Shown piece after piece: positions 5,661 to 58,182 of a stretch of DNA of 64,000 nucleotides. Source of the DNA: Candidatus Brocadia sp. WS118 (lineage in GTDB: Bacteria > Planctomycetota > Brocadiia > Brocadiales > Brocadiaceae). A model generated the notes under the pieces. That model worked only from the letters and a program-made list of their open reading frames with translations, was not told the origin of the DNA and did no database searches. Position numbers and translations under genes: made by a program. Location: assembly GCA_007618135.1 (NCBI GenBank), contig PHFX01000008.1, positions 1 to 64,000 of the forward strand. The letters run 5' to 3'. Each line of letters opens with the position of its first letter. The first letter of the stretch is position 1.

Positions 5661-8306
5661 ATGTCCGACAAGATTAATCATGCAATCGAACACGCTAAGC
5701 ACCTGATGCCTGATCAGGGTCCGCTTCCCTTTTTTGTTCACCACAACACCATTCACCACTTCGAGACATACGACTTTTTTGAAGGTGTTAAACAGGCGGG
5801 GCGTTTATATGGCGCTAAGGCATTTATGTCTGAAGAGGAGTTTCTCCTGGCGTATGAACGGGGACGCATTACGGCGGATGTCCTTCAAAAGAGTATCGAA
5901 GAATATGTCAAGCGATATAAGCTTGCCATTCAACCGGATATTCTGTTTAAACTCATGACAGCAAAGCCTCATACACGTCCGGTGCCTGACGAGAGGATTC
6001 ATCAGTTTGTAGAAGACACCGCGTACCAGCGACCGGGATATTATAAAGAAGCTGTTCAATTAATACACAATCAAAACATCGATGAATTGATGGAACCAGT
6101 TCTCTTTCGGTTTCTCCCCTCTTATTTCGACTTTGGCCTTGCCTATTGGCCCATGCCGAATCGCGAGAAAGGGCTATGGCATTGCTTTTGTGAAATTTAC
6201 TCAAAGAGCGGTTTTTTCAGGCCGAAATTTCTCAGGACATTGAACCGGATCGTCTCCGAAGCAAAGCGATATTCCTACGATGAAGCCACCGGGCTTTTGC
6301 TGAAACGTCTGGCCATTCCTGACGAACATTTGGATGACTACCTGTTCCACACCCTGTATCGTTACAAGGGGTGGGTGGGCACCATTAAATCTCTGGAAGA
6401 GGTTCCGGATTGGATTCCAGATCACGATATTAAGGCGTCATTTTACGAGGTTGTCCCTGTAATTCTCGTTGTTGAGCTTGCGGCGATTGAGTCCGTATGT
6501 GAGCTTATCAGTCTGAGGATACCGGTTTACAAACCGATACCGTTGTACGACCCCTCTTTTGTCGCATCTATCGTAAAAGCCTTAGACATTAAAAATAGCG
6601 ATACCTTTCCCAGTGAAGTCACCCAAATTACCGACGAAAATCGCCTGGAGATATGGCAGCGCTCCTACGAAGATACCTTTTACAATCAATTTCTTTCAAC
6701 ATACCGTAAGGGAGCTATCGAGTCAAAACCAAAATACAAGCTTCCGAATTATCAAGTCTTTTGTTGCATAGATGAACGGGAGGAATCTTTCCGCCGCCAC
6801 CTGGAGCGAATAGATGCTGGCGCAGAAACCCTGGCAGCCGCCGGACATTACGGTCTTGATATGAAATTTAAGGCGGTGCCGGATAAACATTACCGCAAGA
6901 TGTGCCCCCATCCGTTAGTGACACCGTCGGTGCAAATTTGCGAAAAAGCAGTGAAGCTTGAGGATGCGATGCCAAAAAAGCTGCAACTTTACGGGGAGGC
7001 GCAGTGGGCAATTACGCAGGCATCCAAGACCCTTTTGGGGGGCTTTGCACACACGATTTTCAGCGGGATTTTGGATTTCCCGCCGTTTATCCTGGACGTG
7101 CTCTCCCCAAAGTACAGCTCCAAGCTGCGACGGTATCTGGCAGCTTATAAACCAAATACCCGTCTGGTCTACAAGAAAGAAACTCATGAAAATGAAAAAG
7201 GATGGGACCTGCAAGGCCGGATCGCCCGTGCCACGGGTATACTCAAGGGCGCAGGCTTTTCGGACAACTTTTCACCTTATGTATTCATTCTGGGTCACGG
7301 ATCGAGCAGCCTGAACAACCCGCACGAAGCTGCCCACGATTGTGGGGCTTGCGCAGGTGGGCGCGGCGCACCCAACGCCCGTGTATTTGCAGCCATCTGT
7401 AATGAGCCGGAAGTGCGTGCAGGACTTGCAAAGAACGGTGTAATGGTGCCGGATTCAACACGGTTTATCGGAGGATATCATAACACCTGCAGCGACGAGG
7501 TGCTTCTTTTCGACCTTCCCGACCCCATTGAACCGCTCCTGCAAAAGCATATTGACACGATTCGCCGTGCTGCGGTGCTGGATGCGAAAGAGCGCTGCCG
7601 GCGCTTTGATGAGGTTACGGCGAACCGGTCGGAAAAGTCATTTGCTGATTATGCGCAAGGACGCTCGATGGACATTACTCAACCGCGTCCCGAATACGGC
7701 CACTGCACCAACGCAATTGCTATCGTAGGTCCGAGGCATCTTACGCGAAATCTTTTCTTAGACAGACGCGCATTTTTAACTTCCTATAATTATCAAGTAG
7801 ACCCTGAAGGAAAATCCCTGAGAGGCATACTTGGCGCAGTTGGACCGGTATGTGCAGGAATTAACCTCGAATACTATTTCAGCTTTATTGACAACGAGCA
7901 CTACGGCTGCGGCACCAAACTACCCCACAACGTTACGTCACTGGTAGGGGTAATGAACGGGCATTACAGCGACCTGCAGTTGGGTTTGCCATGGCAGATG
8001 GTCGAGTTACACGAACCTGCCCGATTGATTCTGCTCGTCTGCTGCAAGGTTAAAACGATGGAAACTATCCTTAACGAGGCCTTTGGTTATACCGGCCAAC
8101 CCGGGCACTTTCAGTGTCTGGTGAAACACAATTGGATTACCCTCGTGATTCACGATCAGGAGCAGGAAAAGCTGTTTTTGTGGAGAGGCGGGATGGAAGG
8201 ATGTTTTGTACCATTCGAAGAAACGGTGGATGTGCCAGAATACAAGGGCGACGATCAACGGTTTTTCCTTGAACAGGGTCATCTTTTGTTTGGACAAATT
8301 ACGTAG
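5661..8306 (+). CDS. dabA: DabA, catalytic subunit of the DAB inorganic-carbon transporter
   Basis: This 881-residue protein belongs to the DUF2309/UPF0753 family, now known as DabA. DabA has a beta-carbonic-anhydrase-like active site and, coupled to the membrane partner DabB, is thought to drive one-way hydration of CO2 to bicarbonate using an ion gradient. The four expected active-site residues are present: C369 and D371 in FCCIDERE, H546 in ILGHGSSSLNNP, and C561 in HDCGACAGG, with the 15-residue His-to-Cys spacing typical of the family. The dabB gene starts six bases downstream. In an autotroph fixing CO2 or bicarbonate this would supply inorganic carbon. Confidence 0.92.
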   Translation: MSDKINHAIEHAKHLMPDQGPLPFFVHHNTIHHFETYDFFEGVKQAGRLYGAKAFMSEEEFLLAYERGRITADVLQKSIEEYVKRYKLAIQPDILFKLMTAKPHTRPVPDERIHQFVEDTAYQRPGYYKEAVQLIHNQNIDELMEPVLFRFLPSYFDFGLAYWPMPNREKGLWHCFCEIYSKSGFFRPKFLRTLNRIVSEAKRYSYDEATGLLLKRLAIPDEHLDDYLFHTLYRYKGWVGTIKSLEEVPDWIPDHDIKASFYEVVPVILVVELAAIESVCELISLRIPVYKPIPLYDPSFVASIVKALDIKNSDTFPSEVTQITDENRLEIWQRSYEDTFYNQFLSTYRKGAIESKPKYKLPNYQVFCCIDEREESFRRHLERIDAGAETLAAAGHYGLDMKFKAVPDKHYRKMCPHPLVTPSVQICEKAVKLEDAMPKKLQLYGEAQWAITQASKTLLGGFAHTIFSGILDFPPFILDVLSPKYSSKLRRYLAAYKPNTRLVYKKETHENEKGWDLQGRIARATGILKGAGFSDNFSPYVFILGHGSSSLNNPHEAAHDCGACAGGRGAPNARVFAAICNEPEVRAGLAKNGVMVPDSTRFIGGYHNTCSDEVLLFDLPDPIEPLLQKHIDTIRRAAVLDAKERCRRFDEVTANRSEKSFADYAQGRSMDITQPRPEYGHCTNAIAIVGPRHLTRNLFLDRRAFLTSYNYQVDPEGKSLRGILGAVGPVCAGINLEYYFSFIDNEHYGCGTKLPHNVTSLVGVMNGHYSDLQLGLPWQMVELHEPARLILLVCCKVKTMETILNEAFGYTGQPGHFQCLVKHNWITLVIHDQEQEKLFLWRGGMEGCFVPFEETVDVPEYKGDDQRFFLEQGHLLFGQIT

Positions 8307-8312
8307 GAGCAT

Positions 8313-10310
8313 ATGATGGAGTACTCTCTTATCACGTATCTTGCGCATTACTTTGTACTATTTCCCATCCTCAAGGTGCTTGCAATAAACATCCAGTATT
8401 TTTCCAGCAAGCGGGAAATCGAAGAACATATGGTCCGTAAATTGGTCACATGGGGAGGCATGAGCGATGTTGTACACGTTGTGATCGCCTTGTGCATCCT
8501 GGGATTCAAGACAACTACGGTTCGCATAGAGTCATTCTGCCTGATTGGCTGGCCCTTTATTGTGGATTGGAACCTCTATACGGCTATGTTTTTGGCCTTT
8601 ACGACAATAATTGTTACCATCATTGGCCGGTTTTCTCTCTTTTATCTGCACCGCGATGCCTATTATCACAAGTTCTTTTCCCTTTATTTTATCTTTCAGC
8701 TGTCGCTGGGGCTTCTTGTTCTTAGTTCCAGTACCTCCTATTTGTTCATGGGCTGGGAACTTCTGGGCCTTTCATCAGTGCTTCTTATCGCGTTCTACGA
8801 GCATCGTCCTAATCCGCTTAAAAACGGTATGCGGGTGATGTTTATTTATGATTTCGGAGATATCTTCCTTTTTTCCCTGGTGGTGTTACTGCTTTATTTC
8901 CATATTGAGGATATCAACGACATGGCGTTGATTCAGGAGCATGGCTGCGAGTGGGCAAAGTTTTTATTGATTGTGGCATGCTTCTTTAAGTCTGGTATTT
9001 TCCCATGGATCTGGATACCGCGGGCAATGGAAGGGCCTACACCTTCGAGTGCGGTTTTCTACGGCTCGCTGTCAACTCATATGCCTATCTTACTTCTTCT
9101 CCGCATGTGGCCCCGTGAATGGGCGCTTCCTGCCTATTGGCCTGATGTGTGGACTATCTCGCATCCGGCCAACGCCATTGCCCTTGCGATTGCCATTTGT
9201 GTTTTTTCTGCCTTTGTCACGACGCATATGAGCCGTCAACATTCCGACGCCAAGAATACCGTTGCATATGCCATCACGACACAGTTGGCCATTATCTATA
9301 TCGAGATATTCCTGGGATTTTACACCCTTGCTCTCATCCATGTGATATCCCACGGGATATATCGTACCTATGAGTACATGCGCACCCCATCGTTGTTCCA
9401 CCTCTACCACACCATGGAGACACGACGACCAAGGAGAACAAGTACCGGGAAACACTTTGAATCCATTCTTCCCGAACGATTCAGAAAATGGCTTTACTCG
9501 CTCACGATCAACGAGTTCGGTTTTTTGTCACGATCCTTTGACCTTATTGATCAGTTCCTTGGTCTGAAATACACGAGTTTTGACAAAAAAGCGGCACGAC
9601 GCTTCACCATTGCAATATCCGTGGTATGGGTAGTCTTTAGCGTCGTGATGTTTGTCCTCAACAGGAGGCTTTTCAATATTGAATATACCAACGATGGCAA
9701 TGGAAATACTGTCATGTCATTTATTATCAACTGGAATTATTTCAATGTAAACGAAGAGTTAATACTTGTTCTTGCAGTAGGTTTCTGCGTGCTCTCCTTC
9801 TACAATATCCGCAGGATAGCTATGTACTTTGTTACACTTGCCTGCTCCGCCTGGTCGGCTGGTCTTGTCCAGGCGTTAGAACTGATAAAAAATACGGATG
9901 CGAAACACCTGTGGTCTTGTGTGTCTGTGATTACCCTTGCCATTGTCTTTGTGGGGCTCGCCTGCTACTCGGCATATATTTCCGCGAATAACAACGAGAA
10001 ACAGGCGAGCTTTACCGCACATCTCCATCGTACACCCCTGTCAAACGTCCTGTTGTTTCTCCTCGGCCTCACCATTGTCGGTATGCCGGGGCTTGGCAGC
10101 TTTTTGGGTTGGGAACACCTTGTCCATTATGCTGCACCCCTTGCCCCTCATACGGTAGTGAAGGGATTTTTTATCCTGAAACTGAACACAATTCTGGTCG
10201 TCCTCTTTTATTTCAGCAACTTCCTCGGCTTACCTGAACGTAAGGTGCAAGTGTTGGATCATTACAAGCATGATACCTTGCATCTCCGCTGGGTGCAGAA
10301 ACATTCCTAG
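8313..10310 (+). CDS. dabB: DabB, membrane subunit of the DAB inorganic-carbon transporter
   Basis: This 665-residue polytopic membrane protein resembles the proton-pumping NuoL/ND5 and Mrp antiporter subunits (proton_antipo_M domain). It has more than twelve hydrophobic stretches and a conserved core with KSGIFPWIWIPRAMEGPTP near residue 230-247, which matches the lysine-containing helix and loop of this superfamily. Directly after dabA, it is best read as DabB, which couples ion flow to CO2 hydration by DabA. A perfect AGGAG lies upstream; ATG codons at 8313 and 8316 are both possible starts. No other complex I genes surround it, which argues against a Nuo operon. Confidence 0.9.
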   Translation: MMEYSLITYLAHYFVLFPILKVLAINIQYFSSKREIEEHMVRKLVTWGGMSDVVHVVIALCILGFKTTTVRIESFCLIGWPFIVDWNLYTAMFLAFTTIIVTIIGRFSLFYLHRDAYYHKFFSLYFIFQLSLGLLVLSSSTSYLFMGWELLGLSSVLLIAFYEHRPNPLKNGMRVMFIYDFGDIFLFSLVVLLLYFHIEDINDMALIQEHGCEWAKFLLIVACFFKSGIFPWIWIPRAMEGPTPSSAVFYGSLSTHMPILLLLRMWPREWALPAYWPDVWTISHPANAIALAIAICVFSAFVTTHMSRQHSDAKNTVAYAITTQLAIIYIEIFLGFYTLALIHVISHGIYRTYEYMRTPSLFHLYHTMETRRPRRTSTGKHFESILPERFRKWLYSLTINEFGFLSRSFDLIDQFLGLKYTSFDKKAARRFTIAISVVWVVFSVVMFVLNRRLFNIEYTNDGNGNTVMSFIINWNYFNVNEELILVLAVGFCVLSFYNIRRIAMYFVTLACSAWSAGLVQALELIKNTDAKHLWSCVSVITLAIVFVGLACYSAYISANNNEKQASFTAHLHRTPLSNVLLFLLGLTIVGMPGLGSFLGWEHLVHYAAPLAPHTVVKGFFILKLNTILVVLFYFSNFLGLPERKVQVLDHYKHDTLHLRWVQKHS

Positions 10311-49908: not shown

Positions 49909-51579
49909 ATGAAGATTTTATCACATACTGTAGTTATAAAAAGGCTATTCTTTTTATTACTGTTGCTGGGGGGCTTTCTTCTTCTTCTTTTGTCTTTATC
50001 TTCCGGGCAATCCCTTATGGAAGAGGGTGAGCCTCCGGAAAATTACCAGCTACAGGTCTTCCTGGAGGAAGAGGAGGCTCTTGCGAAGATTTTTACCGGA
50101 TGTGATCAGGTTGAATCAGAAACCCTTGCCCTTACTCCTGAAGGACGTGAGCATTTTAAGGAGCTCTTGAAAAGACCGGATATTGAAGCGACCTTTGAGG
50201 TCTTTATCGGCAAAAAGGGAACGGTGATAGACCGGTATGCTATTATTGCTGAGGAGATGGGCTGCTTTCATCCGATTACATGGATTCTCAGCACAAATAC
50301 TGATGGAAAGATTCTTGACATTGCCGTGATGATCTATCGGGAAAGCCGCGGCCAAGAGGTCAGCCGGAAGAGGTTCTTGAAGCAATTCGAAGGCAAGAAC
50401 CTGAAAGACCCTCTTTCGACAAATAAAGACATTATCAGAATTACCGGCGCCACCACGTCGGTACAGGCAGTTTGCCGGGGCGTGAAAAAGATGCTTGTCT
50501 TTATCCATGAATTTTACCTTAATAAAAATACTGTCTCTGCAACACTGGCGTATCGTTTGACTCCTGAAGAAGTCAGTACTATGAAGAAAGCTCGCCGGCA
50601 ACTCTTTACTACGGCGAAAACCTTTGATGGGGTAAAAGCAGTGGTGGCTGCTGAAGGAGACAGCGAGAGACAGTTTTTTTCTTTGGCAGAAAAGACATTT
50701 CATGAGATAGAACGCATTGAGAGGCTTTTCAGAAAAGAATTGCAGGCAATGAATAAGGTTGCTGCGAAGACCCCCTTTGCCTGCAGTGAAGAGGTATTTG
50801 AGGTACTGAAGCGGTGTTATCACTATGGGGTGCTTACGGAAGGCGCTTTTGATGTAACCGTATCTCCGTTATTAGAGCAATGGGGAATTTACCGGGGTAA
50901 ACGAAAAGAAGTAAAGGAGGAGAGGCTTGAAAACATTCTTCAGGCGGTCTCGTATAAAAATGTAAAAATCAATGATGATAATACCCGCATTTCTTTTGCT
51001 CATAGGGACACAAAGATAGTCCTGGGGCCTGTGATAAAAGGGTATGCAATAGATAAGGCATTGGAACTATTTCGTAATTCGGGGCTTACCAATGTTTGCA
51101 TTAACTACGGAAGTATGAGCCGTATGCTCAATGCTCCTACCGGAAAAGAAGCTTGGAAAATAGGGGTCCCCCATCCCACAAACGAAGATACGATTGTAGG
51201 CGTTCTCCGTATGGTGAATCAAGGGATAGCATTTGTTGGTGATTATTTGAAGTATCCTGCGGTGCAGGACAAATCATATATGCATCTCATAGACCCGAAA
51301 ACGGGAATGCCGGCAGGGGGCGATAAACTCGCCGTTATAGCGGCTGCGCCCACTGCAGAAGAGGCGGGGATTGTGGCAACATTCCTTTTTGTTCAAGACA
51401 CAAAGGAGAGAGAAAAAGTGGCAATGAATTTTCCGTCTGCCGCGTGGTTGATTGTTTCGGACAAACCTCAGCATAGTATCGTGTTTGAGGGATCTCCGGG
51501 CATGATGGAAAATTTCAAAGAAGGGGAAGAAAAGAGTTTCAAGTACGGCAGGGGTGCAGGATGTTCCTTTAGCCCGTGA
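49909..51579 (+). CDS. FMN_bind-ApbE fusion (flavin transferase with its own target domain)
   Basis: The 556-residue protein begins with a membrane helix or signal peptide (about 12-32). Residues about 95-205 form an FMN_bind domain whose flavinylation site is IIRITGATTS near 182-191. Residues about 215-545 form an ApbE domain, with FDVTVSPLLEQWG near 320, GPVIKGYAIDKALE near 368, and HLIDPKTGMPAGG near 463. ApbE moves FMN from FAD onto a threonine of proteins such as NqrB and NqrC. The usual second glycine of the NxGG motif is Ser here (NYGSMSR). The fused target domain suggests extracytoplasmic electron transfer as well. Confidence 0.82.
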   Translation: MKILSHTVVIKRLFFLLLLLGGFLLLLLSLSSGQSLMEEGEPPENYQLQVFLEEEEALAKIFTGCDQVESETLALTPEGREHFKELLKRPDIEATFEVFIGKKGTVIDRYAIIAEEMGCFHPITWILSTNTDGKILDIAVMIYRESRGQEVSRKRFLKQFEGKNLKDPLSTNKDIIRITGATTSVQAVCRGVKKMLVFIHEFYLNKNTVSATLAYRLTPEEVSTMKKARRQLFTTAKTFDGVKAVVAAEGDSERQFFSLAEKTFHEIERIERLFRKELQAMNKVAAKTPFACSEEVFEVLKRCYHYGVLTEGAFDVTVSPLLEQWGIYRGKRKEVKEERLENILQAVSYKNVKINDDNTRISFAHRDTKIVLGPVIKGYAIDKALELFRNSGLTNVCINYGSMSRMLNAPTGKEAWKIGVPHPTNEDTIVGVLRMVNQGIAFVGDYLKYPAVQDKSYMHLIDPKTGMPAGGDKLAVIAAAPTAEEAGIVATFLFVQDTKEREKVAMNFPSAAWLIVSDKPQHSIVFEGSPGMMENFKEGEEKSFKYGRGAGCSFSP

Positions 51580-51765: not shown

Positions 51766-52287
51766 ATGTTTTGCGTGTGTCATTTGAGAACAGTCTTAGT
51801 CATAACATTATTTGCGATGCTGTCTTTAACGGGTGTCTCCTATGCGAAGGATCCTAAAGAGATTACGTCCACAGATTTGAAAGAGGTTGTTAGGGCTAAC
51901 AAGGATAAGATCGTGTTGGTGACATTCTGGGCAACGTGGTGCAAGGTCTGTCAGGACCACCTTCCAGAACTCAATACTCTTTACGGGAAATACAAAGACA
52001 AGAACGTGGAAATTATAGGGGTATCGCTGGACGATAAACCGAAAGATGTTCAAGACTTTATTCAAAACAGAGGGATTGACTTTCTTGTTTTCAGGGCAAA
52101 GGACAAAGAGGAAATGAGTTATGTTTACCAGGTAAAGAAAATTCCCATTATCTGCTATTATAAAAATGGAAATCTCGAACACATCGAGGAGGGCTATACC
52201 GATCCTGCACATATCGAGGAGGATCTACGTAGTTGCCTGGAAGGCGCCAAGCCTCCCAGCAAAGATACCCGCACGCCATCAAAATAA
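51766..52287 (+). CDS. Exported thioredoxin-like protein (TlpA/ResA type)
   Basis: This 173-residue protein has a signal peptide (about 1-27, ending SYAKD) and a thioredoxin fold with the redox motif WCKVC near 64-68 in TFWATWCKVCQDHLPEL, and cis-proline in KKIPIICYY. Proteins of this group reduce disulfides outside the cytoplasm, often keeping apocytochrome CxxCH cysteines ready for heme. It has a very strong AAAGGAGGAG site. It sits between the FMN_bind-ApbE gene and the multiheme genes, which fits a maturation role; that is inferred. Confidence 0.82.
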   Translation: MFCVCHLRTVLVITLFAMLSLTGVSYAKDPKEITSTDLKEVVRANKDKIVLVTFWATWCKVCQDHLPELNTLYGKYKDKNVEIIGVSLDDKPKDVQDFIQNRGIDFLVFRAKDKEEMSYVYQVKKIPIICYYKNGNLEHIEEGYTDPAHIEEDLRSCLEGAKPPSKDTRTPSK

Positions 52288-52542: not shown

Positions 52543-52771
52543 ACCATTCCTTGTTTGATATTCGACATTCGGCGTATTACTTTTCAATGGAGAACGAAGA
52601 ATCTCTTCGCTCTGGAACAACTTTGAAATTCCCAAGCATCAAACTATTGGGATTTTATCTGTGGAATCTGTGCAATCTCACATTTAAGAGAAAGTGAGGT
52701 GAAATGGTAAAGGTAAAGGTAGTGGAATGTGATTTCTGAAAAACTCTTTGAAAGAAAAGGAGGCTATGATT

Positions 52772-53932
52772 ATGAAGGTCTACAAAAATTTTTGTAAGAA
52801 ATATCATTTTGTCTGGATTTTTGCCCTGTCTGCCATTTTCTATCTGCCACAAAATGCATCTTCTGTCTATGCAAAGTGCACGAAAGAAAACGATTGTTTT
52901 TCATGTCACTCTTCCCAGGAATTAAGGGATGTCCATAAGACGTGTCAATATCTGAATCAGGGATGTCTTTCCTGCCATGCGGTTCCCAAAAATCTGGCAG
53001 CAGCATCACCCGATTCTTCCTGCAATGGTAAGTCTGAAAAGGGTTCCTGTGGCAACAGCAAAGGGTGCCAGGGTTCATGTGAGGGAGAAAAGGGATGCGG
53101 TGGTGAGGGCATTTCTTCGGATATACAGATGGGACATGAGGACTGGGAAAAGTTGCAGCGAAGTGTCCATGAAACTATCGAAAAATGCCTCGTAGGCAGA
53201 AAGTTCCTGGAAACGTATGGTCCCCTTGGTGTGGGGAGTCAGTGTGTTCCTGTCGACACCTTTGGAATACCATCATGGGCAACTGTAGATATGCTTGGAG
53301 AATCAGATAATGCCATCCATGCGCTCAAACGTGAGATTGCGCACATACCGCTCATTTACAAAGATTTCTGGCTCTTCTGGAGGGACATTGAAGCAAGCAG
53401 GAAATGTGAAACTCCCTTGGATATCAGCGCTGCAGTCGGGGCCGCTGTTGCCGCAGCTGCCCGTGAAGACGACCTGGTGTTTAACGGCTTGCCGGATATG
53501 AACATGGCAGGGCTGTTGAATGTGGATGGGCGCAATATCATGAAACTCAGTGACTGGTCGGTAATCGGTAACGGGTTTCAGGATGTAGTGTCTGCGGTTG
53601 AGAAGTTGAGGAGTACCGGTTTTTTTCCGCCGTATACGCTTGTAGTAAGTCCAAAGCTTTATGCGCTGCTCCACAAGGTGTATGAGCGGACGGGAAAACT
53701 AGAAATCGAAGCGGTAAAAGAAATGGTAAAGGGCGGTGTATACCAGAGCCCCATACTGAAAAAAGACGTAGCCCTGGTTATGGCAGCCGGCAGACAAAAT
53801 GCGGATTTGGCAGTGGGTGGAAATTTTAAGGTAGAATACAACGGACCGGAGAACCTAAACCATAGGTTCCGCGTCGTTGGCAGTTCCGTGCTCAGGATCA
53901 AGTGTCCGCAGGCCATTTGTACCTTGGAGTAA
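52772..53932 (+). CDS. Encapsulin shell protein with N-terminal di-heme cytochrome c domain
   Basis: I start at ATG 52772, eight bases after AAGGAGG, giving 386 residues. A signal peptide (ending VYAKC, about 29) is followed by two heme motifs, CFSCH and CLSCH (about 36-72), then a Cys/Gly-rich linker of about 40 residues with six more cysteines. Residues about 120-386 form the HK97-fold family 1 encapsulin: GVGSQCVPVDTFGIPSW, FWLFWRDIEASRKCETPLD, AAAREDDLVFNG and the C-terminal MVKGGVYQSPIL ... SSVLRIKCPQAICTLE. Encapsulins build protein nanocompartments. Shells with a cytochrome fused in front and an export signal are known from anammox bacteria. The cargo gene follows after three bases. 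Confidence 0.93.
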   Translation: MKVYKNFCKKYHFVWIFALSAIFYLPQNASSVYAKCTKENDCFSCHSSQELRDVHKTCQYLNQGCLSCHAVPKNLAAASPDSSCNGKSEKGSCGNSKGCQGSCEGEKGCGGEGISSDIQMGHEDWEKLQRSVHETIEKCLVGRKFLETYGPLGVGSQCVPVDTFGIPSWATVDMLGESDNAIHALKREIAHIPLIYKDFWLFWRDIEASRKCETPLDISAAVGAAVAAAAREDDLVFNGLPDMNMAGLLNVDGRNIMKLSDWSVIGNGFQDVVSAVEKLRSTGFFPPYTLVVSPKLYALLHKVYERTGKLEIEAVKEMVKGGVYQSPILKKDVALVMAAGRQNADLAVGGNFKVEYNGPENLNHRFRVVGSSVLRIKCPQAICTLE

Positions 53933-53935
53933 GTT

Positions 53936-56524
53936 ATGTCTTCGCTTTTTGTCATTCTGAGGCAAAGCCGAAGAATCTCCATGCCCAGGACAGGTCTGAG
54001 CGGAATGAAGAATCTGGTCTTTTGCTTCATGCTGATGTTAGCATGCCTTTCCCTCTCTTTTCAGTATGGATATGCAGAGATCCCTTATCTTGCAGGAACC
54101 GATGGAGTTGTTTACCTGGAAATGGAGGCGCGTCCGGTTGTTCTGGAGCTGAGACCTGGCGTTTTTTTCGATGCCTGGGGGTATTGTAGAAAAGGTGAAA
54201 AACCTACGGTGCCTGGTCCTACGATAAAAGTAAAGGAAGGGACCAAAATCAGAGTTCATTTTACCAATAAGCTGGCGGTGCCTGCCTCTCTCCATCCTCA
54301 CGGGGTGAAATACACCGCGGCAAATGATGGCGCTCACATAGCAGGGAATCCTACCAGTACGGTTGAACCGGGGCATTCGAGGACGTATGAGTGGGACTCG
54401 AGCGGCACGCCGGGCACGTGGTTTTACCACACCCATGCCCTGGAAATGGGCGGAGATGAAGGTCTCTACCGGGGACTCTGGGGTGCATTGATCATCGAGC
54501 CAAAAGAAGATGTCGCAAATCCACCTGATAAAGAGTTTGTTGTCTTCATGCACTCGTACATGGTGAACGGGACTGAGTATGAAGCGTTTAATGATAAGTC
54601 CGGTGATATTGAGTTCATGAACGGAGACAGTTCCGCATTTCCCGGTTTGGTCTGGAAGGCAAATGTGGGGGAGAAGATACGGTTTCATGTGATTAATACA
54701 GCAGAGGAGATGCATACCTTTCATACGCACGGACATCGATGGATTGATAAGGCAAGCGGGGAGTTGATAGACAATGTTTCACTTGCGCCCTTTACGTCGT
54801 ATGTTGCGGATTTTACGGCAGGTGAAGGAGTTGGTCCAGGAAATTGGGCATTCCACTGTCATTTTCACGAACATATGATGAACGGCATGTTTGGAATTTT
54901 TGTTGTGGAAAAAGAGAAGACGAATGCCTGGATGCTTCCTGATACACAGAGTCTCCCAACCCTTGATTCCGCACCGGGTTCGTATGAATATCCCGATCCA
55001 TCGCTCAAGAGCCTGTATGAGGATTTTGTAGGGCTTAAGCAAGGTGACGGACCGTGGGGGGAATTTTACCAGCCGATACCGTTTTATATGTATTTCAATC
55101 CAACAAGACATTATATTCCGCCTTCTGCTGAAAATTCAAACTACAAAGAACTCCTGAACAGATACAGGCCTGATCAGTGTGTCGAATGCCATGAAGAGTC
55201 TTCACCGGGAATTGTGGCTCAGTGGAAGGCATCGAATCATGCAAAACCGAAAAAAAACCGGGAAGTCTCAGCGGAGACGCAGGAGATTGAGGAATTAATC
55301 GGCAAAGAGTTAAACAACTGGGAACCGGGGACAAAGAATGGGGTGTACTGTTCTTACTGTCATGGTGATAATCACGAGAAGTTATTCATGCCTACCGTCG
55401 ACAACGCCTGTGGTGCCTGCCATCCACGACAGGCGAAAGAATTTGCAAAAGGAAGAGATCATGGCAAACCAAGTCATCCTCAGAGTTGGGAGGCTACGAT
55501 GTCCGTTCCCTGGTATGTGGAAAATTACCGGCGTGGTGAGCGGTATTCGATGATCGGGTGCGACCAGTGTCATCAGAATATGTCATCGTGTGACGACTGT
55601 CATAGCAAGCATCTCTTTTCCGTTGCGGAGGCCCGTCGTCCGGAGGTGTGCTCCGGATGCCATATGGGACCAGACCACCCCGATTGGGAAAGCTATGAAC
55701 ATTCCCGATGGGGGATTATGTATAAAATCTCCGGGGAGAAATGGAATTGGGACAAGAAACTCTCTGAGGTTATCCCCGGCGTTGATTACCCTGCGCCAAC
55801 GTGTCAGTATTGCCACATGTATGTTGGAAATGGCCAGTGGGAGATGAACGTGGAGACGAAAGGCATATGGCGTATGGGTGTTATACCGCCAGCGGAAGTC
55901 GAGTTTAAATCGGGAATCAGGGATTTTCCTTACGGGATAAAGATACCACCCATGGACAAAAAGCTTGAGATATACTCCGCAGAAAGCAAGATGAAACGCC
56001 GCTACTGGGTGGAGCTCTGTACGAAATGCCACAGCAGCAGATTTTCCAGCATGTGGCTTGATTCCCTGGATCAGTACATGTTTGAATCGTGGAGGCGTAT
56101 CGATGATGCACAGCTCGTGGTAGAAGAACTCTTTGCCAAAGATATGGTTAAACCGTCTCCGGAAGAAAGAATTCCTTTCCCCTTGAGCGATTTAATCGTC
56201 AAACTGCTCAGCCAAAAGGAGCTGGGTCCTGAGGTATACAGCCTGTTCAAGAAGACCAGCGGCCACTTGCCGGTAATTGGGCCTGTCCTTGGCGCCTATG
56301 CCGTATTTACTCAGAAGGATGGGAATCCCAGCGGGGTAGAACAGGAGTATGTGGAAATGTGGTTTTGGAACCACCTGCAGGGATACAAGGGCACCGCCCA
56401 TGCCCAGCAGGACATCAGCTGGTGGTGGGGCACTGCTCAAACGATGGGGAATCTGACGCGCATCCGGGATGAAGCAGTGAACTTGCAAAGGTTAAAGAGT
56501 CTTGAAGAGGCAGTAAAAAAATAA
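53936..56524 (+). CDS. Multicopper oxidase fused to octaheme HAO-like domain, probable encapsulin cargo
   Basis: The 862-residue frame has a signal peptide ending near YGYAE (about 45). Residues about 60-320 form a two-domain multicopper oxidase with HPHG, YHTHA, HTHGH and HCHFHEHMMNGM, the full copper ligand set. Residues about 390-760 hold eight CxxCH motifs in order: CVECH, CSYCH, CGACH, CDQCH, CDDCH, CSGCH, CQYCH and CTKCH, the hydroxylamine-oxidoreductase pattern. The same fusion is the known cargo of the cytochrome-encapsulin of anammox bacteria. ATG 53936 has GGAG upstream, but the next 15 codons lie in a dispersed repeat; ATG 54005 gives a cleaner signal peptide. The C-terminal LQRLKSLEEAVKK might be the loading peptide. 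Confidence 0.9.
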   Translation: MSSLFVILRQSRRISMPRTGLSGMKNLVFCFMLMLACLSLSFQYGYAEIPYLAGTDGVVYLEMEARPVVLELRPGVFFDAWGYCRKGEKPTVPGPTIKVKEGTKIRVHFTNKLAVPASLHPHGVKYTAANDGAHIAGNPTSTVEPGHSRTYEWDSSGTPGTWFYHTHALEMGGDEGLYRGLWGALIIEPKEDVANPPDKEFVVFMHSYMVNGTEYEAFNDKSGDIEFMNGDSSAFPGLVWKANVGEKIRFHVINTAEEMHTFHTHGHRWIDKASGELIDNVSLAPFTSYVADFTAGEGVGPGNWAFHCHFHEHMMNGMFGIFVVEKEKTNAWMLPDTQSLPTLDSAPGSYEYPDPSLKSLYEDFVGLKQGDGPWGEFYQPIPFYMYFNPTRHYIPPSAENSNYKELLNRYRPDQCVECHEESSPGIVAQWKASNHAKPKKNREVSAETQEIEELIGKELNNWEPGTKNGVYCSYCHGDNHEKLFMPTVDNACGACHPRQAKEFAKGRDHGKPSHPQSWEATMSVPWYVENYRRGERYSMIGCDQCHQNMSSCDDCHSKHLFSVAEARRPEVCSGCHMGPDHPDWESYEHSRWGIMYKISGEKWNWDKKLSEVIPGVDYPAPTCQYCHMYVGNGQWEMNVETKGIWRMGVIPPAEVEFKSGIRDFPYGIKIPPMDKKLEIYSAESKMKRRYWVELCTKCHSSRFSSMWLDSLDQYMFESWRRIDDAQLVVEELFAKDMVKPSPEERIPFPLSDLIVKLLSQKELGPEVYSLFKKTSGHLPVIGPVLGAYAVFTQKDGNPSGVEQEYVEMWFWNHLQGYKGTAHAQQDISWWWGTAQTMGNLTRIRDEAVNLQRLKSLEEAVKK

Positions 56525-56820
56525 ACCATACCATCAATACCGAGCGTAGCTACGCTGCAACCAAATCCCCCCTTAGTAAAGGGGGTGAAGGGGGTTGTGA
56601 AAAGACTCGCTAAAACAAGGTGAGTAGGTTGGGTTGAACGCAAGTGAAAACCCAACACCAACTGTTCATTGCTTCAATAATTATGTTGGGTTTCGCTCAC
56701 GCTTAACACAACCGACGGTGCTACTCTCAGAATATTTACAGGAAAATCAGGTTGATTCCTTCCTCTAAAATGCATAAAATGAAGTTAGTTATTAGGAATA
56801 TTTACAAAAAGGAGATAACC
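56525..56820. other. Gap with left copy of the TA-flanking repeat
   Basis: After a GGGGGTGAAGGGGG-type palindromic stretch (56563-56600), the unit 56622-56732 is the left copy of the direct repeat given separately. No gene is seen. Confidence 0.45.
56622..56732 (+). repeat. Direct repeat, left copy, flanking a TA module
   Basis: GAGTAGGTTGGGTTGAACG ... AAACCCAACACCAAC ... GTTGGGTTT ... GCTACTCTCAGAA. A closely similar unit lies at 57372-57474 in the same orientation. Each copy contains an internal inverted pair, AAACCCAACA and TGTTGGGTTT. Confidence 0.7.
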
Positions 56821-57042
56821 GTGCGTATAACTGATATTCCTGAAATTGCTAAATTAAGTACGCAGGAAAAAATCCTGTTAGTTGAAGATATTTGGGACAG
56901 CATAGCTTTGGATGAGTCTGCAGTACCAATTCCACATAGCCACAGAGATGAATTGGATAGAAGGCTCAGAATTCATGAATCTGCTCCTGGAAACCTTTTA
57001 ACTCTCGAAGAACTTCAGGCTAGAATAGAAAAAAGGAAATGA
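56821..57042 (+). CDS. Addiction-module antitoxin (TIGR02574-like)
   Basis: I start at GTG 56821, six bases after AAGGAG, giving 73 residues. The sequence matches small antitoxins of the 'putative addiction module component' type: LSTQEKILLVEDIWDSIA near the N-terminus and RIHESAPGNLLTLEELQ near the C-terminus. Such proteins pair with RelE/ParE toxins; here the toxin start overlaps the antitoxin stop by four bases (ATGA). The frame upstream to 56752 codes for no typical antitoxin sequence and is not used. Confidence 0.85.
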   Translation: MRITDIPEIAKLSTQEKILLVEDIWDSIALDESAVPIPHSHRDELDRRLRIHESAPGNLLTLEELQARIEKRK

Positions 57043-57353
57043 CGCACAACATCCGGTTTCTTCCAGAAGTAGAAGACGATGTTGTCCGTGTATATGCATG
57101 GTACGAAGCAAAATCGCCAGGCCTTGGAGAGGAATACCTGCGCATGTTTTATGCCTGTGTTAGTGAGATTTCTAAGAATCCCTTGCTTTATCCAAAGGTT
57201 CATAGCGAATTTCGCCGCCGTTTGTTGAGAAGATTTCCATACGCTATCTATTTTATGATAAGAGATGACCAAATTGTTGTATCTGGACTTTTTCATTGTG
57301 CACGTGATCCACGCTCAATCAGAGCGAAATTGCACGATCGGGAAACACCATAA
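57039..57353 (+). CDS. RelE/ParE-family toxin
   Basis: This 104-residue protein shows the RelE/ParE fold: VEDDVVRVYAWYEAKSPGLGEEYL near 11-34, PLLYPKV near 48, RRRLLRRFPYAIYFMI near 58-73, and the C-terminal HCARDPRS. ParE toxins block DNA gyrase, and RelE toxins cut mRNA on the ribosome; the sequence alone does not decide between them. It is coupled to the antitoxin upstream. The module is bracketed by direct repeats, suggesting it moved as a unit. Confidence 0.85.
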   Translation: MTHNIRFLPEVEDDVVRVYAWYEAKSPGLGEEYLRMFYACVSEISKNPLLYPKVHSEFRRRLLRRFPYAIYFMIRDDQIVVSGLFHCARDPRSIRAKLHDRETP

Positions 57354-57741: not shown

Positions 57742-58182
57742 TTAAATTAATTCTGCCAATTTTCCTTCTTTGCTCTTGTCTTTGTCCTTACCTTCATCTT
57801 CCGACATGACCGTGCCGGCAAATGCAGTTTTTACTGCACCAGGCATCAATTTTCCAGACTTTTCTTCTTTGTCTTTCTCCGTGCCTTTGCCTTCATCTTC
57901 TGACATGACGGTGCCAGAGAATGCGGTCTTTACTGCACCAAATATCAATTCTCCTGATTTTCCTTCTTTGTCCTTGCTCTTGTCTTTGTCTTCTGACATG
58001 ACCGTGCCGGCAAATGAAGTCGTTACAGCGTCAGACATCAATTTTCCAGACTTTTCCTCCTTGTCCTTGTCCTTGTCTTTATCTTCTGCTATGACAGGAC
58101 TAACAAACGCACTATTTACAACACCAGTACTAAACACTAATGCCCCTACAACAGTAAGACTACAACCTAACTTCTTTAACAT
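57742..58182 (-). CDS. Secreted repetitive charged protein
   Basis: The 146-residue protein has a signal peptide (about 1-32, ending SPVIAE). The mature part consists of three repeats of about 35 residues with the pattern KDKEEKSGKLM, then AVKTAFAGTVMSED. Each unit pairs a highly charged Asp/Lys/Glu run with a short Ala/Thr/Val-rich segment. The DNA repeats are almost as well kept as the protein, which suggests recent duplication. An open frame of 163 codons on the plus strand is the mirror of these repeats and lacks a good signal. Function unknown. Confidence 0.65.
   Translation of the reverse strand: MLKKLGCSLTVVGALVFSTGVVNSAFVSPVIAEDKDKDKDKEEKSGKLMSDAVTTSFAGTVMSEDKDKSKDKEGKSGELIFGAVKTAFSGTVMSEDEGKGTEKDKEEKSGKLMPGAVKTAFAGTVMSEDEGKDKDKSKEGKLAELI

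Follow-up and report, generated by a model that had tools for sequence, protein, structure and literature searches.

The 64,000-nucleotide stretch of contig PHFX01000008.1 from Candidatus Brocadia sp. WS118 (the window) carries an encapsulin shell gene (52772–53932) followed by a gene for a fused multicopper oxidase and octaheme protein, its presumptive cargo (53936–56524), both on the + strand. The genome belongs to the genus Brocadia, with B. carolinensis and B. pituitae as its closest named relatives. We regard it as almost certain that the locus encodes a family 1 encapsulin system of the extracytoplasmic cEnc/NIR-HAO kind already published for anammox bacteria (Giessen & Silver 2017, as cited in PMC6934571 and PMC8346489). 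All of the features that define the cEnc subtype are present: a Sec-like signal peptide, two CxxCH motifs before the shell domain, an adjoining NIR-HAO gene and an anammox genome. We conclude that the window system is an ordinary, well-preserved representative of an already known, still poorly understood system, whose most likely role would be that of an electron-fed extracytoplasmic reductase compartment acting against O2 and reactive nitrogen.

An earlier note on this DNA had placed both genes at these coordinates and had described an exported shell with two CxxCH motifs, followed three bases on by a multicopper oxidase–octaheme gene. Apart from its count of linker cysteines, that description is correct, and the anammox shell and cargo pair to which it pointed matches the published cEnc and NIR-HAO system. 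The pair was compared with shells and cargos from anammox genomes, 19 of each; some of these genomes are labelled Kuenenia-like or Scalindua-like by inference. The same cargo lies beside the shell gene across anammox genera; because this pairing recurs, and because the HK97 and cytochrome regions of the shell are under purifying selection, it does not arise by chance.

The exported shell and its presumptive cargo

The two genes contain the following features.

52755–52763, +: shell Shine–Dalgarno sequence (AAAAGGAGG), 8 nt before the ATG at 52772
52772–52873, +: Sec-type signal peptide of the shell, residues 1–34, predicted cleavage after VYA; in all full-length homologs except G060
52874–52987, +: diheme c-type cytochrome domain, residues 35–72; in 12 of 19 homologs
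52988–53125, +: low-complexity Cys/Gly/Lys linker, residues 73–118, with five Cys; not conserved
53126–53932, +: family 1 encapsulin (HK97-type) shell domain, residues 119–386 and stop, from profile and structure-sequence matches
53936–56524, +: cargo open reading frame from its first possible start, a multicopper oxidase–octaheme HAO fusion, from profile and structure matches and motif counts
53940–54004, +: repeat-like insertion, from partial genomic copies and relatives without it; cargo N-terminus longer by 23 codons
54005–54076, +: cargo signal peptide (MKNLVFCFMLMLACLSLSFQYGYA), normal when read from ATG 54005
54077–54913, +: two-domain multicopper oxidase with complete type 1, 2 and 3 (T1, T2, T3) ligands, from alignment to solved laccases, motifs and model
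54995–56521, +: octaheme HAO-like domain with eight CxxCH, Asp557-His558 and no cross-link tyrosine, from the 6h5l match and motifs

The shell protein of 386 aa starts at an ATG preceded by a well-placed AAGGAGG Shine–Dalgarno sequence ending 8 nt upstream, and the gene stops at 53932. Four positive n-region charges, a hydrophobic core and a cleavage site between VYA and K make up its signal peptide. The heme motifs that follow are CFSCH (residues 42–46) and CLSCH (65–69), with C36, H55 and K56 invariant. A search of PDB for the source of this heme domain gave weak multiheme cytochrome matches only, and we claim no donor; the one match in its own genome (E=0.003) is to part of a six-heme protein encoded next to a second HAO paralog.

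The shell passes both curated family 1 encapsulin models, Pfam PF04454 (E=2.6e-60, 204.3 bits, cut-off 24.3) and the NCBIfam equivalog NF041155, encap_f1 (238.3 bits, cut-off 100), and its best solved-structure match is Myxococcus xanthus EncA (E=4e-74). An AlphaFold2 model built from 19 sequences, too shallow an alignment, reached a pLDDT of 40 and was not used; the HK97 fold is predicted from homology to solved shells. T=3 shells have been reported for relatives (PMC8346489).

Compared with B. pituitae, the ratio of non-synonymous to synonymous change (dN/dS) was 0 in the cytochrome domain, 0.09 in the shell domain and 0.28 in the linker. The linker cysteines number five (Cys 85, 93, 99, 103 and 109), not six as in the earlier note, and across the compared anammox shells the number ranges from 0 to 5 in a lineage-specific manner. 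Given this variation, and since the linker evolves faster than its flanking domains, a conserved metal or disulfide role for these cysteines appears unlikely. Three further cysteines, Cys158, Cys212 and Cys378 (window positions 53244–53906), are kept in 14–16 of the 19 anammox shells and missing from M. xanthus EncA; they are candidate disulfide residues in the exported shell.

The cargo reading frame opens 3 bases past the shell stop with its own GGAG 6 nt upstream, and in most relatives it likewise starts within a few codons of the shell stop. The insertion at its start, codons 2–23, has partial copies elsewhere in the genome (91–94% identity over 33 bases), and because the copies found were partial only, it is called repeat-like and not a named element. 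Starts at 53936 and at the internal ATG 54005 both lead into the same signal peptide. Export, as the earlier note proposed, agrees with the signal peptides present on shell and cargo and on nearly all relatives. The cargo C-terminus is level with the 6h5l end and shows no targeting peptide, and homologs whose C-terminus is covered show no consensus peptide. Such peptides occur in most, not all, family 1 systems, and fusion systems are exempt. As a missing signal has already been reported for anammox cargos (PMC6934571, PMC8229669), its absence does not exclude family 1 encapsulin membership.

The copper half of the cargo retains all twelve ligands of a two-domain multicopper oxidase (H97, H99, H142, H144, H237, H240, H242, H284, C285, H286, H290 and M295 of protein P0002). 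Its motifs HPH, HTH, HTFHTHGH and HCHFHEHMMNGM, aligned to those of solved two-domain laccases, follow the pattern HxH, HxH, HxxHxH, HCHxxxHxxxxM; their assignment to type 1, 2 and 3 sites presumes established laccase chemistry. The predicted cargo model is reliable for the copper half alone (pLDDT about 80–90), and there the modelled fold matches laccases and NirK equally (Z about 25), which does not separate the families. Sequence identity is 34–37% to small laccases and 20–26% to NirK. An identification as NirK is not borne out: the Cu nitrite reductase model scores 48.6 bits against a cut-off of 296.3, the type 1 Cys lies in domain 2, and domain 1 has HTH where NirK has HC. Because the ligand set is that of a complete two-domain laccase and the NirK type 1 site in domain 1 is missing, the label ‘NIR’ (nitrite reductase) is not supported by the sequence of this genome's copper half. 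The laccase alternative has been raised before (PMC6934571).

The heme half aligns end to end with PDB 6h5l (E=8e-162, 543 bits) and has the eight CxxCH motifs and the catalytic Asp-His of an HAO-like octaheme protein. The cross-link tyrosine of oxidative HAOs is missing: there is no Tyr in QQDISWWWGTAQTMGNLTRI or in any homolog covering the region. This, and a score of 137.9 against a cut-off of 900 for the HDH model, speaks against an oxidative HAO or hydrazine dehydrogenase. The nearest paralog in the same genome (49% identity) is encoded right after a two-heme cytochrome c gene, and a second (45%) lies beside the six-heme protein; from sequence and gene order these would be the counterparts of HAOr and of the Rieske/b-complex HAO, respectively. 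In the HAOr clade, HAOs without this Tyr work in the reductive direction (PMC12758564).

Variation among anammox genomes, and the neighbouring genes

Encapsulin turned up in 21 of 62 Brocadiales genomes, and HDH-family proteins in all of them. All twelve copper ligands are intact in 14 of the 19 cargos compared. Type 3 ligands are replaced in five homologs (L034, L039, L035, L036 and L050), which come from G024, G021, the Scalindua-like G044 and a pair of genomes within one Kuenenia-like genus. In every case the HCH motif has its second His replaced, and in four the same is true of motif II. The cargos of G018, G020 and G024 retain their type 1 and type 2 ligands; those of G021 and G044 have also lost type 1 ligands. 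On a tree of the HAO part, the type 3 losses need at least two independent changes. Among the 19 shells and cargos, no correlation was seen between an intact copper site and the presence of the shell heme domain. The HAO part from G044 (L050) groups inside Brocadiaceae and its shell with the other Scalindua-like shell, which may point to a swap of this cargo from one lineage to another.

Twelve of the 19 shells carry the heme domain. The seven heme-less shells have a signal peptide in all cases except G060, whose start is unclear, and those of G018, G021, G042, G035 and G044 adjoin the same multicopper oxidase–HAO fusion cargo. Where the C-terminus is covered, cargos of heme-less shells have no added C-terminal tail. 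Because heme-less shells keep the same cargo without a targeting tail, the cytochrome domain is unlikely to be an essential cargo loader. This weakens the published idea that the cytochrome domain holds the cargo (PMC8229669); the linker stretch before the shell domain persists in all. In G029 (L030:1–1767), close to contig ends, a heme-bearing shell gene comes immediately after a heme-less one, and in G010 (L026:10649–11149) the thioredoxin gene is followed by a truncated extra shell gene of which the C-terminal part remains. Given such tandem genes, mixed heme-bearing and heme-less shells are possible. The second heme motif in G011 (L037:3062–4219) reads CLSFH instead of CLSCH, through either an error or heme loss.

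The B. carolinensis shell has been reported as unfused (PMC6934571). Its contig (L033:10345–11475 and upstream) contains a complete heme domain that reads through into the shell, while the ATG that opens the same signal peptide sits in the neighbouring frame; what splits the frames is apparently a single base more or less in a stretch of seven A inside the signal peptide. The reported lack of fusion probably reflects this one-base frameshift, for which the simplest causes are an error in sequencing or assembly, or a recent mutation. At four loci of non-anammox planctomycetes, the encapsulins with their fetched flanks showed no obvious signal peptide and no multicopper oxidase–HAO cargo.

Two neighbouring genes upstream of the shell are conserved, both identified from profile matches and locus comparison.

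51766–52287, +: exported TlpA/ResA-like thioredoxin
49909–51579, +: FMN-binding and ApbE (flavin transferase) protein

Most Brocadiaceae loci with sufficient upstream sequence have both of them ahead of the shell, and the thioredoxin also carries a signal peptide; their predicted functions would fit heme maturation or electron supply. Promoter-like and terminator-like sites around the shell and cargo genes were not commoner than in shuffled sequences. Elsewhere in the window, two small overlapping genes at 56752–57353 are, by inspection, of RelB/RelE toxin-antitoxin-like type and also lie downstream in B. pituitae (97–99%); DabA followed by a proton-antiporter-domain protein (5661–10310) is a probable inorganic carbon uptake pair; and an exported low-complexity protein on the − strand (57742–58182) has repeated SGKLM..AVKTAFxGTVMSED and DKDKDKEEK units.

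A proposed reductase compartment and its alternatives

The domains, export signals, metal ligands and gene linkage described above are best explained, with somewhat better than even probability, by an extracytoplasmic cEnc/NIR-HAO compartment acting as an electron-fed dual reductase. Our proposal for how it would work, to which we give slightly less than even weight, covers encapsulation, extracytoplasmic assembly, hemes facing the lumen, the electron path and the substrates. Sec would export shell and cargo unfolded, with heme and copper inserted outside the cytoplasm, where the TlpA/ResA-like neighbour may aid heme attachment. The shell would then assemble around the cargo, its inner wall lined by the diheme domains, which would relay electrons to the multicopper oxidase–octaheme fusion; the copper half would reduce O2 and the Tyr-less heme half nitrite, NO or hydroxylamine. 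Such a particle would confine and remove species harmful to anammox enzymes. The lumenal placement is by analogy with other N-terminally fused family 1 shells, whose fusions project into the lumen (PMC8229669). The earlier note had electrons moving through the shell by way of its hemes, a route left without support both by this orientation and by the seven of 19 shells that are heme-less yet keep the cargo.

This explanation is supported by the matches to the encapsulin models and by the signal peptides of the shell, the cargo and the neighbouring thioredoxin, as well as by the strong constraint on the cytochrome domain. A reductive heme half is suggested by the eight hemes, the retained Asp-His, the missing cross-link Tyr and 6h5l as nearest solved relative, and an O2-reducing copper half by the full set of two-domain laccase ligands. 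The anammoxosome proteome is reported to include encapsulin (PMC6934571), and Xing et al. 2020, as cited in PMC12445922, report a hydroxylamine-stress role. Several points weigh on the other side. The activities of both cargo halves are predictions. Neither the O2-reducing site nor the heme domain is universal, since the former is lost in five of the 19 cargos, Kuenenia-like ones included, and the latter is missing from seven of the 19 shells. Encapsulation is suggested by operon linkage, as no C-terminal loading peptide was found. O2 reduction would have to be a stress function because anammox bacteria are anaerobic, and a system found in only 21 of 62 Brocadiales genomes is not core metabolism. 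We consider rather doubtful the fullest version of the proposal, an exported nanocage whose heme-lined inner wall feeds electrons to an enclosed enzyme that reduces O2 at copper and nitrogen oxides at heme, with the copper chemistry switched independently in several anammox lineages and heme-bearing and heme-free subunits mixed in some species.

The published name NIR-HAO would suit a compartment that reduces nitrite to NO and feeds hydrazine synthase as a direct part of the anammox reaction, and the HAO half is indeed closest to the Tyr-less clade that includes HAOr, an NO-forming nitrite reductase. HAOr already fills that role, however, the copper half lacks the NirK arrangement and falls far below the NirK cut-off, and encapsulin occurs in a minority of Brocadiales genomes although all carry HDH-family proteins; we think such a compartment unlikely. 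The particle might instead oxidize metal, with the copper half as a ferroxidase and the cage holding iron. Iron storage is known from other family 1 shells, the copper-domain matches include ceruloplasmin, and iron-rich bodies of ~25 nm have been reported in anammoxosomes (PMC6934571), but this leaves the octaheme half unexplained, Kuenenia-like lineages have lost the type 3 site, and there is no ferritin-like gene among the neighbours scanned, all of which makes iron storage rather improbable.

Detoxification by oxidation of hydroxylamine or hydrazine draws on the HAO-family domain of the cargo and on the hydroxylamine-stress role reported by Xing et al. 2020, as PMC12445922 cites it. A reductive route would relieve hydroxylamine stress too, and with the cross-link Tyr missing in all homologs covering the region and the HDH score far short of its cut-off, we hold an oxidizing compartment to be a poor prospect. 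Finally, HK97 ancestry and a weak Major_capside match (E=0.0016) could suggest a remnant phage capsid. Searches of phage records and viral contigs led us to reject a phage origin: there was no match in 50,697 phage records and no viral-contig candidate was confirmed, while the equivalog encapsulin match and the conservation of shell with enzyme across anammox genera make a capsid extremely improbable.

Relation to known systems

Encapsulins that assemble outside the cytoplasm with their own electron-transfer domains are rare. To what is known of them our comparison adds the laccase-type ligands and their losses, the presence or absence of the heme domain, the variable linker cysteines and the probable B. 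carolinensis frameshift. The ligand and presence/absence patterns bear on whether to drop the ‘nitrite reductase’ label and on whether the cytochrome domain loads cargo or supplies electrons; the ligand patterns also bear on whether Brocadia and Jettenia, unlike Kuenenia, have O2 as a substrate.

The anammox cEnc/NIR-HAO system (Giessen & Silver 2017, as cited in PMC6934571 and PMC8346489) has the same signal peptide, N-terminal diheme domain and family 1 shell, the same MCO/NIR-like and HAO-like fusion directly downstream, a thioredoxin neighbour and an anammox host. Nothing categorical sets the window system apart; its linker is longer, with five Cys, its cargo begins with the repeat-like insertion, and its laccase-type copper ligands are all intact. 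The closest solved shell, that of M. xanthus EncA (4pt2, 7s20), aligns over residues 120–386 (253 bits) and shares the AICTLE end, but in alignment lacks the extra cysteines at 158, 212 and 378. EncA is cytoplasmic, without signal peptide or heme domain, and encloses iron cargo with targeting peptides. For the heme half, the closest solved relative is the HAOr-type 6h5l, a Tyr-less Kuenenia HAO with the same length to the C-terminus which, unlike the window cargo, is not fused to a copper oxidase; for the HAOr-type counterpart in the window's own genome, the two-heme partner is encoded by a class I-like cytochrome gene of its own. The copper half shares all T1, T2 and T3 ligands with two-domain laccases such as Streptomyces coelicolor SLAC (3cg8; 34–37% identity, Z about 25), and differs from SLAC-type laccases in its fusion to an octaheme domain and in its pairing with an encapsulin shell gene.

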